Origin: Gemmatimonadota bacterium | GTDB lineage: Bacteria; Latescibacterota; UBA2968; GCA-2709665 | DNA: 64,000 bases | Assembly (NCBI GenBank): GCA_028874335.1 | Contig: JAPPJY010000095.1 | Location: forward strand, 1-64,000 | Direction: 5' to 3' | Notes under the pieces: generated by a model | The model's database searches: none | Told to the model about the DNA's origin: nothing | The model's input: only the letters and a program-made list of their open reading frames with translations | Part shown: piece by piece, positions 1 through 60,932 of the stretch | How positions within the stretch are numbered: the first letter of the stretch is position 1 | How the letters are laid out: the number at the start of each line of letters is the position of its first letter | Position numbers and translations under genes: made by a program

Positions 1-119
1 GCCCATATTTAATGTATCGTGGCTGCGCGCCCCTCGCCACTCTTGGGTGGGTTTGACCAACGCCGACCGGCGCTTTTGCAGCCGCGCGAAGACCGCTGGG
101 AATTTTAAGACAGCTTCTT
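1..119. repeat. Truncated copy 1 (long subtype) of dispersed terminal-inverted-repeat element family A
   Basis: Contains ...gggtttgaccaacgccgaccggcgcttttgcagccgcgcgaagaccgctgggaattttaagacagcttct, the reverse complement of the start of copies at 54088 and 60711; left end cut by the window. Confidence 0.8.
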
Positions 120-2097
120 AAATGAAGATTCTGTTTCCGATCGTTCCCGAAAAGTAGTCCACGATGCACCACACGCCAGCGCCGGTGGCCTCTCCCAGTA
201 TTATTCCGATGAAGAGCGGCCGGGTCCTCCGGTACAGCGTCGCCCCTCCGAATTTCAACACGGTCGCTTTCATCCACCAGGCCAAGAAGACACTGAAGAA
301 ATAGGTATCCGTGTACCAGATCGTACTCAATGGAAGCGCAACCGGGTGCAGAGGCCACCACCTGAGACGCATCCTCAGCAGGGTCAACAGACCTGCAATA
401 CCCATCCCGAGTCCGGTATAAAGCATGCCTTTCGTGAAAACGGGACTCGGCTCCAGCATGCGCGTCCCCACAAAGGCATCGAACGGGATCCGCGAATAAT
501 CACGGAAGTGCCGGTCCAGATTCAGACCGCCCCGCGCATAGCCCAGATCCAGCGTCATCGCGCTTGCGGTAACCAGTCCAACCCCCATCGCCGCGCCCAT
601 CGCCCAGATCAGGCCGCGCTTGCGCCTCATCCCCCTCGACAGCCACAGCGCCCCGAGGGCGCGGGGCATCACGTTGCTGACCCGCGTCATCGTCCAGGCG
701 TAACCGAACCCCAGCGTCACCAGCCCCGCCGGGCCGAAGGCCGACGAACCCGTTGCGCAGACCACGAACTCAGCCGGGTTGATGGGCGAATAGGTGGCTA
801 TGAATCCCGTCTCGCTCACAATCCGCGCAAGAACGAAAAACACCACGATACAAGAGAAGAACAGAAACAGGATCAGAGCGAGAGACATTCCCGCCTGGTA
901 CAACCAGCACCCAAGATATACCAGGCCCCCAAGGGTTCCGAAGACCGCGGCACGGTAGGAGATGACTTCACCGGAATCGTCGGCGGTTGACGACGTCCTG
1001 AACGCCCTGGTAAAGACCCCGCGCAGGTGGGCCCGCGCCGTCCACGCGCTGTACGCGGCCAGCACCAGCATGTATCCCATCCCTGTCAGCGCGAGAAACG
1101 ACGACCCGCGGGAACTGAACCGGCCGACCATACCCGAGACATCCGTATACTCCGCTCCGAAGACCGCCAGCGTCCCCCTGATGACCTTGGAGATGACGTT
1201 GAACACCCAGATGCTCAGGCTCACGTCCAGGTTCACAAAGTAGGAATACCCGAGAATTGCAAAGTGCATCCTCAGGGGTAACGGGGTCGTCCCCTGAAAA
1301 ATCCAGAGCATCGTCCCCATCTGGACCCGGGGCACCGTATGGAAATAGTGATTCAGACCATTGATCGTACCGATCAAAAGCGGGACGGCAAACCCCGCCC
1401 ACATCAATCGGTTCCTGAACAGCGGTCCCAGGCGCCCGGCATCCGTTTCCGTCATTTCCAGCGGCACCTGGAGAATCGGAAACGCGAACCGCTCGTGCTC
1501 CGACCACTGCCTCCGGAATATCACGGCGATGCATAACAACACTCCGAACAGCACCAAAAAAAACGACCCCCAACTTGCCAGGGGGGCCAGCCATGCCAGC
1601 CAGGGCAGGGGAACGCCGTGCGGAAGCCCCTCGTAGAATCCGCGCACCGCCTCGGCGTTACGGGGGGCCGTCCACGGCAGTATATGGGGCAGTACGGCTT
1701 CCAGGTCGGGGCGCTCCGGGGAAGCGTAGTAAGTTGCGCCAGTCAGAAAGGCGATCAGCCACTTGACCATCCACAGTGCCGGCATCGACACCAGAAGCAT
1801 CGAAAAAATGCACAGAAGCTCTCCACGTTTCAGGCGATGCGCCGGCTTCAGGACGACGTTGCAGAAAAGGATCAGTAAGAGAAAAACGAACAGGATGCCA
1901 CGGTCCACAAAATAGTAGTGGAGAGAGGTACCCTGGATCACCATACGGTTGTAGGGGATGACAACAGCCAGAAAGAGGCACAGAACGAGCCCGATCAGGA
2001 AGGCCCTGCCCGTCAGTCCGTCCCGTACCTCCTCACACACCCCGCTGCGTTCGCCAGGAGTCCCATCTCGAAGGCTCTCCGCCGGGAGGTCGGCCAT
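118..2097 (-). CDS. DUF6785/DUF6784-like polytopic membrane protein (paralog 1)
   Basis: 659-aa ORF, many hydrophobic segments; shares LTGRAFLIGLVLCLFL..YNRMVIQG....DRGILFVF and ARIVSETGFIATYSPINPAEFVVC with three other ORFs in the window. Confidence 0.85.
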   Translation of the reverse strand: MADLPAESLRDGTPGERSGVCEEVRDGLTGRAFLIGLVLCLFLAVVIPYNRMVIQGTSLHYYFVDRGILFVFLLLILFCNVVLKPAHRLKRGELLCIFSMLLVSMPALWMVKWLIAFLTGATYYASPERPDLEAVLPHILPWTAPRNAEAVRGFYEGLPHGVPLPWLAWLAPLASWGSFFLVLFGVLLCIAVIFRRQWSEHERFAFPILQVPLEMTETDAGRLGPLFRNRLMWAGFAVPLLIGTINGLNHYFHTVPRVQMGTMLWIFQGTTPLPLRMHFAILGYSYFVNLDVSLSIWVFNVISKVIRGTLAVFGAEYTDVSGMVGRFSSRGSSFLALTGMGYMLVLAAYSAWTARAHLRGVFTRAFRTSSTADDSGEVISYRAAVFGTLGGLVYLGCWLYQAGMSLALILFLFFSCIVVFFVLARIVSETGFIATYSPINPAEFVVCATGSSAFGPAGLVTLGFGYAWTMTRVSNVMPRALGALWLSRGMRRKRGLIWAMGAAMGVGLVTASAMTLDLGYARGGLNLDRHFRDYSRIPFDAFVGTRMLEPSPVFTKGMLYTGLGMGIAGLLTLLRMRLRWWPLHPVALPLSTIWYTDTYFFSVFLAWWMKATVLKFGGATLYRRTRPLFIGIILGEATGAGVWCIVDYFSGTIGNRIFI

Positions 2098-3899: not shown

Positions 3900-5879
3900 T
3901 TACAGAAGGAACATATTGCCGACCTTTCCGGTGGCAAAGTCGATGAGGCTCCACGTGCCCAGGCAGACCGCCTCGCCCAGGATGATCCCGATAAAGAACG
4001 GCCTGGTCTTGCGATAGAGGGTCGCCCCGCCGAACTTCATTACCAGCGCCTTGATCCCCCATGCCAGAAAGATACTGAAATAATAGTGTTCTGTCATCCA
4101 TATCGTGCTTACGGGCAGGGCGATCGGGTGAATGGGCCACCATGACAGGCGCGTTCGCAGGACCATGAGCAGCGCGGCAAGGCCCAGCCCCAGGCCGGTA
4201 TATACGAATCCGCGGTAGAACACCGGGCTGGGATCCAGCAGCCGGCGTCCCACGTATTCGTCGAACGGCAACGCGGCGTCGTTCACGTCGCGGAACCAGT
4301 AGTCGAGGTTCCGGCCTCCGTGTGCGTAGCCGAGATCCAGCGTCGTGTGGCTGGCGACAACCAGCCCCACGGCCAGGGCGGCGCCCATCGCCCAGATCAG
4401 TCCCTGCGTCCGTCCCATTTCCCGCGCCAGCCTGAGCGCCGCGGATGCGCGGGGCATCAGCGTGTTCAGCCGTGTCATCGACCACACGTAACCCACGCCT
4501 GCGGTTACCAGACCGGTGGGACCGAACGCCGACGAACCGACCGCGCATACGACGAACTCCGACGGGTTCAACGGCGAATAGGTCGCGGCATAACCGGTTT
4601 CGCTGACGATTCTGGCAAGGACGAGAAAGACGACAAAGGAGGCGATGAACAGGAGTGCGATTACATGCGGCGGCAGTCCCGCCTGGTAGAGCCAGCATCC
4701 AAGATACAGCGTGCCCATCAAGACACAGGCCACCGCCGTCCGATAGGGTAGCACCTCCTCCGAATCGACGAGACGAGACGGGCGTCCCAGAACCTTCGTC
4801 CAGACGGCTTTCAGGTGGCCCCGGGCAATCCACAGGCTGTACCCGGCCAGCGCCAGCATATACCCCATGCCCATGAACGCCAGGAACTCCGACCCCTGGG
4901 AGCTGTGCCGCCCCACCATCCCGGATACGCCGTAGCGTTCCGCGCCCAGCATTGCAGACACGCCGTTTATGCACTTGGCGATAACGTTCAGGAGCCAGAT
5001 GCTGAGACTCACGTCCAGGTTCACGAAATAAGCATAACCCAGCAGGGCGAAGTTGAGCCTGATTGACATCGGAATCGCGCGCCGGAAGATCCAGATCACC
5101 GCGCGCAGGCTTATCCGGGGCAGTGTGTGGTAATAGCTGTGCAGCGCGTTCATCGAACCGATGGCGAACGGAATCGCAAACCCCGACCACATCATCCGGC
5201 CGCGGAACAGCGGTCCGATCCAACCGTCGCCGCGCTCGCCCATCGCTAGAGGAACCTGCATGATGGGGAAGGCGAATCGCTCGTGCTCCTCCCACTGTTT
5301 TCTGAGGATCACCGCCACACAGCCCAGCACCACGAACAGCGCGACCAGGAACGAGCCCCAGCTCCACAGAGGGACCACCCACGCCCACCAGGGCACGGAA
5401 CCGCCCTTCGGCAATCCTTCGTACAGCCATCTGACGGGCTCGGCGTCCAGCACCGCGAGCCACGGCAGGGAGTAGGGCAGGACAGCCTCCAGGTGCCGCA
5501 TCTCCGGAGACGCATAGTAGGTTACGCCCGTCATGAACCCGAGCAATGCCTTGGTCATCGCCCACGCCGGCATCAGGAGCAACAGCATTGCATAGATGGC
5601 CATCAACTCGCCCCGGCCCAGGGCGTAGCGGCGTTTCAGCAGACCGAGCAGCGGGTTGAGCAGTACGGCCAGACAGAAAAAGAGAAAAAGCACGCCCCGG
5701 TCCAGAAAGTACCAGCCCATAAAGGGGCCCTGGACCACCATCCTGTTGTATGTCAGCCAGATTCCAAGAAGAGCGCACAGTCCGAGGCCGATCAGGAACG
5801 CCCGGGGCGACAACCCGTCTTTCGCATTCGCGTCCGGTATCCCGAAATCCTGCGCGCCCGTTCGGGGACTCAATGCCAT
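3900..5879 (-). CDS. DUF6785/DUF6784-like polytopic membrane protein (paralog 2)
   Basis: 659 aa, homologous along its length to ORFs at 118, 8182 and 48337. Confidence 0.85.
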   Translation of the reverse strand: MALSPRTGAQDFGIPDANAKDGLSPRAFLIGLGLCALLGIWLTYNRMVVQGPFMGWYFLDRGVLFLFFCLAVLLNPLLGLLKRRYALGRGELMAIYAMLLLLMPAWAMTKALLGFMTGVTYYASPEMRHLEAVLPYSLPWLAVLDAEPVRWLYEGLPKGGSVPWWAWVVPLWSWGSFLVALFVVLGCVAVILRKQWEEHERFAFPIMQVPLAMGERGDGWIGPLFRGRMMWSGFAIPFAIGSMNALHSYYHTLPRISLRAVIWIFRRAIPMSIRLNFALLGYAYFVNLDVSLSIWLLNVIAKCINGVSAMLGAERYGVSGMVGRHSSQGSEFLAFMGMGYMLALAGYSLWIARGHLKAVWTKVLGRPSRLVDSEEVLPYRTAVACVLMGTLYLGCWLYQAGLPPHVIALLFIASFVVFLVLARIVSETGYAATYSPLNPSEFVVCAVGSSAFGPTGLVTAGVGYVWSMTRLNTLMPRASAALRLAREMGRTQGLIWAMGAALAVGLVVASHTTLDLGYAHGGRNLDYWFRDVNDAALPFDEYVGRRLLDPSPVFYRGFVYTGLGLGLAALLMVLRTRLSWWPIHPIALPVSTIWMTEHYYFSIFLAWGIKALVMKFGGATLYRKTRPFFIGIILGEAVCLGTWSLIDFATGKVGNMFLL

Positions 5880-5916
5880 CTTCCCGCCACCTCCATACCG
5901 TCATGGGAAAACGCTC

Positions 5917-6079
5917 AGAAGCTGTTTTAAAATTCCTGGTGAGTCCCGAGCGCGAGCGAAAATGTGTCGGTCAAGGCGGGCAAATCCGCCCATATTTGCC
6001 TATACGGGTGGGTTTGCCCAACGCAGACCGACGCTTTTGCAGCCGCGCGAAGACCGCTGGGGGTTTTAATACAGCTTCT
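5917..6079. repeat. Copy 2 (short subtype, ~163 bp) of element family A with terminal inverted repeats
   Basis: Begins agaagctgttttaaaattcc and ends ggttttaatacagcttct; internal block matches copies 1, 3 and 4. Confidence 0.85.
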
Positions 6080-8100
6080 CAGCCTTCCATCCTTACGTGG
6101 ATCGCCAGGACGTCGCAATCGCCGGGAATATCCAGCGGTATCCGTATCGTTCCGTCTTTCGCCGATATCACGCGGTCATTCCAGTTCGCGCCGGACCAGA
6201 TCTCGACTACGTCTCGCGCGCTTTTTCCTTCGGGAAGGACGATCTCCAGCGCCGTCTCGCTCCTTACAGGGGTATATGGAAACACGATGGCCAGGAGTGA
6301 ATCGCTGTTTTTGACCATCGGGAGCAACTCGATGGTGGGCACGGCCCGCCGGTCGGTCGGCCGCAGTGTTCGGTATTCGTCCACGGGTGGAAAGGGAGTC
6401 AGCCGCGCCAGGGGCCGTCGGTCGGCCGCCCAGAGGATCAATCTCCTCAGCAACGCCACGTTGGACGTCACCTCCAGAAAGGACATTCCTGGAACACTGC
6501 CGGTATATTTCACGGCAGGCATGCCCGCCAGCCAGGCCTCGCGCCGGGACCCCTCTTCAACCAGCACCAGGGCCGGCCGGCCATCCACGGTCCCCAGCAC
6601 CTGCCCGTCCGGATACCCGCCGTCCACCCGGGTCGTCAGGATTACGGGATGTTCCAGTCCCTCCGTAAGCGGATGGTTGTGCAAGAGATCGACTTCAAAG
6701 ATGCCCGACTCAATCTCCCATGGCAGCTTGCATGCGCCATTCCCTGCCCACGGAGCGGCCGGCCGGTTGCCGATCCACAGGAGCCCCTCTCCACGTTCCG
6801 CAACCGCGTTGACAACGTCGAGCTGGGACTGCGTGAGGCAATGCACCTCGGGGAGGATGACCGGGCCGCTCAGCTGATCGCCCGCGTCGTCCAGCCGCTG
6901 GTCCCAGAACCAGCGCCATGGCAGGCCGGTACGATAGACCATATCTACAATAGGGAGCAACCCATGATGTCCCCAGTTGGACTCGTAGTGGCCGGTGATC
7001 TCGGACTGCTGGGGCATGATCATCGTGGCGAAGCCGTAGGGGCGGTGGGACGCGAACATTGGCATGAGTCGCCGGGTTTCGTCGAAGGCCTCGAAATATC
7101 CGGGGATGATCTTCATCTGCTCGTAAGTGAACGGCATCACCAGATCCGCGCCGAGCGCAAACGGCACCACGCCGGCCAGCAGGCCGTCCTGCCGGCCCAT
7201 CGGAACGGCCTGCTCCGGCGGCATGAAGCCCTGCGGATAGATATCCACCTGCCGGTCCATACACGCGCCCATCAGGCTTCTGGTCGTCTCCGAAAGGATC
7301 CTGCGGTGGGGGCGGTGCAGGATGAGATCGTCGTGATTGAAATGATACGGGTCCGTCGCGATAACGTCCTGTGAACGCGCGTCGCGTGCGAGGCGGATGG
7401 CGGTCTGCCAGGCATTGTAGTTCCGCTCGGGGATGGCGGGACTGTGCTGGATGCCCACAGTCACGTCGGGACGGACGTCTTTGATGGCGCTTCGAAGCTC
7501 TGAGTGCACCGCCTCCCAGTTTTCAAAGCGGCACTCCAGCCATTTATACCACAACGGGTCATCCCAATCCGCAGCCCGGGGAGGCTTGACGCCGGTCCGT
7601 TCGCGGAATTCAGCCTCGCAGAAGCCGCAGTAACAGCCGATGGTTCCGTCTCCGAACCCGAGACACGCCTCGTCATTCAGGTGGATTTCACGTGTCGCCC
7701 GCCATTGGCAGATTTCCATAAGAAGGGACAGGTAGTGGGTCTTGTTTTCGGGGCGAAAAGGACACAACCAGCGGACCGGCAGTCCGTCCAGATCCAGCAC
7801 ATCGCCATCGCCGGCCATGTGCATCAGCCGGTGGGGTTCTTTCGCCACCAGACGTTCCTGATACTTGATGTACCCGGTGAAGGCGATGAATCCCAGGTCC
7901 CGTTCCTCACACATCCGGGCAAGCGCCTCCGACTGCGCCAGCGAAAACCCCTGCTGTTTTACCGCGGGTGTGACCGCCACCCCCGCACCCACGTCGGTGA
8001 ATCCTTCGCTGACAATCCGGTCGAGCGTCGACTCGTTCAGCACGACGTCAGGAAAGAGCAACAGCGCCGCGCGGCGGAGTTTCCGGTCAGGTTCCGGCAT
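6079..8100 (-). CDS. TIM-barrel glycosidase-like protein (GH-A/GH42-like), paralog 1
   Basis: 673 aa; REIHLNDEACLGFGDGTIGCYCGFCEAEF resembles acid/base and Cys-rich region of GH42-like proteins; paralogous to 13121 and 37896. Confidence 0.65.
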   Translation of the reverse strand: MPEPDRKLRRAALLLFPDVVLNESTLDRIVSEGFTDVGAGVAVTPAVKQQGFSLAQSEALARMCEERDLGFIAFTGYIKYQERLVAKEPHRLMHMAGDGDVLDLDGLPVRWLCPFRPENKTHYLSLLMEICQWRATREIHLNDEACLGFGDGTIGCYCGFCEAEFRERTGVKPPRAADWDDPLWYKWLECRFENWEAVHSELRSAIKDVRPDVTVGIQHSPAIPERNYNAWQTAIRLARDARSQDVIATDPYHFNHDDLILHRPHRRILSETTRSLMGACMDRQVDIYPQGFMPPEQAVPMGRQDGLLAGVVPFALGADLVMPFTYEQMKIIPGYFEAFDETRRLMPMFASHRPYGFATMIMPQQSEITGHYESNWGHHGLLPIVDMVYRTGLPWRWFWDQRLDDAGDQLSGPVILPEVHCLTQSQLDVVNAVAERGEGLLWIGNRPAAPWAGNGACKLPWEIESGIFEVDLLHNHPLTEGLEHPVILTTRVDGGYPDGQVLGTVDGRPALVLVEEGSRREAWLAGMPAVKYTGSVPGMSFLEVTSNVALLRRLILWAADRRPLARLTPFPPVDEYRTLRPTDRRAVPTIELLPMVKNSDSLLAIVFPYTPVRSETALEIVLPEGKSARDVVEIWSGANWNDRVISAKDGTIRIPLDIPGDCDVLAIHVRMEG

Positions 8101-54087: not shown

Positions 54088-54279
54088 AGAAGCTGTCTTA
54101 AAATTCCCACGCGGTCTTCGCTCGGCTGCAAAAGCGCCGGTCTGCGTTGGTCAAATCCACCCAAGAGTGGCGAGGGGCGCGCAGCCACGATACATTGGAT
54201 ATGGGCGGGTTTTCCGGCCTTGACCGCCGCTTTTTCGCTCGCGCTCGGGAACTCACCGGTAATTTTAAAACAACTTCCT
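54088..54279. repeat. Copy 3 (long subtype, ~192 bp) of element family A
   Basis: agaagctgtcttaaaattcccacgcggtcttcgctcggctgcaaaagcgccggtctgcgttggtcaaa ... aattttaaaacaacttcct. Confidence 0.85.
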
Positions 54280-54305
54280 AGCCGAGCAGAAATAGAGATC
54301 TGCCC

Positions 54306-60710: not shown

Positions 60711-60874
60711 AGAAGCTGTCCTAAAACCCCCAGCGGTCTTCGCCCGGCTGCAAAAGCGTCGGTCTGCGTTGGTCAAAACCACCCGTATACCCAAATATGG
60801 GCGCCTTTGACCGCCTTGACCGACACATTTTCGCGCGCGCTCGGGACTCGCCAGGAATTTTAAAACAACTTCCT
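60711..60874. repeat. Copy 4 (short subtype, ~164 bp) of element family A
   Basis: agaagctgtcctaaaacccccagcggtcttcgcccggctgcaaaagcgtcggtctgcgttggtcaaa ... aattttaaaacaacttcct. Confidence 0.85.
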
Positions 60875-60932
60875 ACAGGCAATAATACAGTCAGGGAAGG
60901 CGGATGCGTTTTTCCCTGGTCACGTATCTCAC

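Follow-up and report, generated by a model that had tools for sequence, protein, structure and literature searches.

MITEs of the Correia/NEMIS, RUP and Chunjie kinds are elements of about 100–240 bp that lie between genes, carry terminal repeats flanked by a target duplication and fold into a full-length hairpin; the duplicated target is TA. Insertion sequences of the IS1031 group of the IS5 family duplicate TNA within YTNAR. Correia elements come in two sizes, 107 and 155 bp, through a central block (PMC2229807), and size diversity has also been described for Chunjie and QMITE (PMC10969869). The Rickettsia palindromic elements insert in frame within genes (PMC10969869). The repeat considered here, termed family A, shares the listed features of Correia/NEMIS, RUP and Chunjie, but its duplication is TNA rather than TA, and it has several alternative loops, present in either direction, which appear swapped at orthologous sites. 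With the Rickettsia elements, it shares a palindromic structure, a size of about 150 bp and some open frames.

The window, i.e., the whole stretch of 64,000 nt analysed, is C71:1-64000 of its own draft genome (G000; 5.43 Mb in 96 contigs). The original prediction had pointed to four intergenic loci with common ends and a shared internal block, in both orientations, and had proposed a search for further copies. Ends and block are indeed present at all four loci (Table 1), and the terminal repeat matches seven times within the window, against 0.18 matches expected. In the whole of G000, a 20-bp terminus gives 214 matches (105 forward and 109 reverse; none for the reversed control) and a 25-bp arm core 115 (56 + 59; control 0). 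More than 100 family A copies thus reside in this genome, in both orientations, and the sister species (G001–G003) harbour comparable numbers; plasmid records searched for family A yielded no copy. Several G000 contigs start or stop within a copy, and copy a is truncated because the window start is itself a contig break inside the element.

Table 1. Family A copies of the window and the target triplets beside them (window positions; copy limits set at GAAGC...GCTTC)
Feature	Position	Strand	Remarks
Copy a	1..117	-	189-type loop; cut off by the contig start (window base 1 is the first base of G000:C71)
Target triplet TTA beside copy a	118-120		Stop codon of minus-strand gene 118-2097
Copy b, left target duplication TCA	5915..5917	.	
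Copy b (feature under study)	5918..6078	-	161 bp; 163-type short loop; full-length hairpin
Copy b, right target duplication TCA	6079..6081	.	Stop codon (TGA) of minus-strand gene 6079-8100
Copy c	54089..54277	+	189 bp; 189-type loop; flanks TGA/CTA, decayed duplication
Copy d	60712..60872	+	161 bp; short loop; flanks TTA/CTA, decayed duplication

Two DUF6785/DUF6784 paralogs occur within 6 kb (window positions 118-2097 and 3900-5879); the former terminates right at copy a, and the latter has copy b immediately upstream of it.

Family A elements are 161–213 bp long, with size clusters at 161–163, 186–189 and about 213 bp. The 15-bp terminal repeat, GAAGCTGTYTTAAAA, runs on into two imperfect arms of about 70 bp, which pair along the whole element with single mismatches at regular spacing. 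The terminal inverted repeats predicted originally are therefore present, but the inverted repeat spans the entire element as an imperfect hairpin. The consensus RNA fold is predicted at -64.8 kcal/mol, and copy b, folded as single-stranded DNA, at -44.6 kcal/mol (z = -6.35). Consistent differences between the two arms allow copies to be oriented. The element holds no transposase gene and has no coding capacity; the earlier claim that it lacks ORF content stands as far as any sign of coding is concerned, but some frames are stop-free through the element.

Outside the ends there is a 3-bp direct repeat, TNA, within YTNAR. This repeat is exact in 30 of 54 copies in G000, compared with a mean of 10.1 and a maximum of 19 when right flanks were shuffled over 2000 rounds; the corresponding counts are 25 of 41 in G003 (8.4 shuffled) and 11 of 22 in G001 (3.1 shuffled). 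At window positions 54278-54280 and 60873-60875, and also in L100, the right junction reads AACTTCCTA instead of the expected TNA. In copy c, the departure from the duplication is conserved in G001, and such a departure recurs among copies.

The empty sites in relatives that the original prediction had proposed to look for were found for copies a, b and c. Pairwise alignment at the copy b site shows the element in G000 and G003; it is missing from G001 and G002, where TCA occurs once. Copy a shows the same distribution, with G000 and G003 filled and neither G001 nor G002 carrying it. The copy c site is filled in G000 and G001 (with a short loop in the latter), and G003 has the exact empty site, CAGTATGGACCTGAGCCGAGC, uninterrupted. 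All three of the four window insertions that were checked in the sister genomes are, therefore, polymorphic; the flank of copy d is not colinear in G003. Since dispersed copies with target duplications and polymorphic insertions, empty sites included, are accompanied by a same-ended transposase family in related genomes (see below), we are all but certain that family A is a high-copy hairpin MITE, probably moved in trans by an IS5-type transposase, and the MITE reading first offered for the four loci is borne out.

When genes were predicted from codon usage on the joined flanks, 8 of 112 copies fell well within a gene, compared with 1439 of 2288 YTNAR control sites (63%). A caller relying on ORF length and GC3 had put 58 copies inside genes, which proved an artefact. 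The intragenic copies examined, in L111 and L119, both break the reading frame, and in this respect family A differs from the in-frame Rickettsia elements. These two copies (L119:2856-3017 and L111:1688-1849) interrupt long ORFs in RHO MAGs and are likely knock-outs. Two further copies (L134:3911-4098 and 6276-6437) are located in an apparent ribosomal protein/rpoA cluster of RHO1_bin_28.

Sixteen of the 84 non-coding insertions fall exactly on a stop codon, compared with 31 of 506 controls (Fisher p 2.7e-4, a value that is optimistic, as orthologous copies were not fully removed from the count); copies a and b in the window belong to this group. Every TNA triplet is a stop on one strand (TAA and TGA, or TTA and TCA), and the gene stays intact at such an insertion because the TNA duplication restores the stop. 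Surviving copies would thus be those between genes or placed exactly on stops.

DUF4096 insertion sequences that occur elsewhere in the class have the same 15-bp ends as family A. L174 (in G009) is 928 bp long, with ends GAAGTTGTTTTAAAA and GAAGCTGTTTTAAAA and TTA on both sides; it is laid out as TTA-GAAGTTGTTTTAAAA...TTTTAAAACAGCTTC-TTA, and its transposase is about 266 aa in length. L159 (G016) has the left end GAAGCTGTCTTAAAACCC and a damaged right end, and L161, L172, L173 and L177 (G038 and G042) share the end GAAGCTGTCTGAAAACCC. The L174 and L159 proteins belong to the IS5 family NF033580 (E 3e-72 or better). We consider a DUF4096/NF033580 transposase the likely mover of family A, judging by these shared ends: it would recognise the 15-bp termini and move the element in trans by cut-and-paste.

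The transposase with matching terminal repeats, which the original prediction had suggested searching for, was found in related genomes of the class (the six loci above) and not in the element's own genus. No same-ended insertion sequence was found in G000–G003 or G005, for which reason the mover is inferred from relatives. Screening the own genome for PF01609, PF13359 and PF13340 revealed no insertion sequence with family A ends, and a protein search with the L174 transposase gave none in own-genus assemblies, its matches being confined to the same-family genome G004. The DUF4096 copy in G004 (L061) was rejected as mover, as its end differs (GAGGGTGTGTGAAAA). Of the long terminal-repeat pairs of 0.3–2.7 kb near copies, those inspected enclosed ordinary genes or were pairs of MITEs, with no transposase discernible by eye. 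The IS5 mover may have been either lost from the genus or not binned; its absence from own-genus drafts says little for loss because a repeated insertion sequence of 0.9 kb easily drops out of bins.

Family A resembles IS1031-kind IS5 elements (NF033580, with DUF4096 and DDE_Tnp_1) in that it shares the 15-bp ends and TNA in YTNAR with L174, where the TNA duplication is seen directly, but it is without a transposase gene and its interior is apparently unrelated: by eye, nothing except the ends matches L174. On this comparison, family A may not be a deletion derivative of L174. G007, a closed genome from the same order, contains 49 DUF4096 matches; none of the copies inspected has the GAAGCTGT end, which marks them as a separate IS5 lineage that has expanded.

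Among 65 genomes of the phylum, six contain the arm core, which is present in the genus (G000–G003), in G004 and, as a single stray match, in G038. The terminus alone is more widely spread because other elements have the same terminus. One of them, in the single-contig genome G010, is a different hairpin element of 184 bp, which is similar to family A in its ends (GAAGCTGTTTTAAAA), its TNA duplication (exact in 44 of 49 copies, against 17.8 shuffled) and its central loop modules, but has an unrelated arm interior (TCATGCTGAGCGTAGCCGAAGCATC). Among the approximately 50 copies read (L205–L274), nested central modules bring the lengths to 184–255 bp, and these modules assort freely with arm variants.

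Apart from differing loops at orthologous sites, family A is an ordinary kind of MITE. Its arms vary little (94% mean column identity in the short-loop set), and the centre that they enclose is a short loop, the 189-type block in either direction, or a 186-type loop. Orthologous copies were compared at 13 loci (14 automatic pairs at 12 loci, plus copy a read by hand). All 14 automatic pairs are in the same orientation, and in seven of them the arms are most like those of the ortholog (rank 1). Nevertheless, the loops differ at 10 of the 13 loci while the arms are kept, the loop being sometimes inverted; copies b and c are examples. A literature search among open-licence papers returned no paper dealing with family A, nor any describing an exchange of loops at orthologous sites.

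Copies would swap their central loops with one another, the most likely route being recombination or repair acting at the tip of the hairpin. A specific form of this proposal, which we hold with even confidence for and against, is a cassette-like MITE, in which the arms are inherited with the site and the loop is repeatedly replaced, in either direction, from other copies; an SbcCD-like activity (the enzyme is a guess) would cleave the hairpin tip, with subsequent repair from another copy. Alternatively, the loop differences could be errors of short-read assembly in a plain MITE with stable loops, as two of the genomes compared are drafts whose contigs carry SPAdes-style NODE_ names, and there are contigs that end within copies. 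This explanation deserves some credence, but we find it doubtful: in single-contig G010, each of the main loop types of the sister element is combined with both variants at the left and right arm positions, combinations which need recombination or repeated loop change, and loop variants are non-random within subfamily arms (the ATACC loop goes with the CCCCC end).

The original prediction had also considered that the conserved interior could be a structured RNA. A regulatory RNA or a terminator-like intergenic element, with a hairpin selected in the transcript, would account for the very stable predicted fold and for six pairs changed on both sides, compared with 1.3 in shuffles, over the full hairpin. 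However, both orientations relative to co-directional genes are equally frequent (36 versus 33), with no fixed gene orientation; only 5 of 104 sites are convergent and a terminator scan gave no match; an Rfam scan of the window was also without a match; and presence varies between sister species. The RNAalifold covariation term, -0.17, amounts to almost no covariation, and none was found beyond shared descent: the doubly changed pairs are few and sporadic, mostly confined to single sequences, and variable pairs are as often broken. Such pairs could also arise from exchange between the arms. We do not regard them as support for an RNA function, and the structured-RNA alternative is very improbable; what folds into the hairpin is the transposon's own inverted repeat. 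A REP/REPIN-type element moved by a Y1 (TnpA-REP) transposase, which would likewise be palindromic, intergenic and of high copy number, can practically be dismissed, as REP elements are shorter (20–40 bp; PMC3733652) and family A has 15-bp terminal inverted repeats matching a DDE IS5 family, and a 3-bp duplication.

Family A, as a MITE, is a major repeat in a family of uncultured bacteria (its named carriers are MAGs deposited under Gemmatimonadota and Latescibacterota), and it explains where the draft genomes of its carriers break. The transposase to test for its movement is now named. Insertion on stop codons illustrates how simply a transposon can persist in a gene-dense genome without harming it. 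If the loop exchange is real, orthologous copies would constitute a natural record of palindrome repair, with only the hairpin tip changing at known ancestral sites, and gene conversion would be concentrated at the centres of genomic palindromes.
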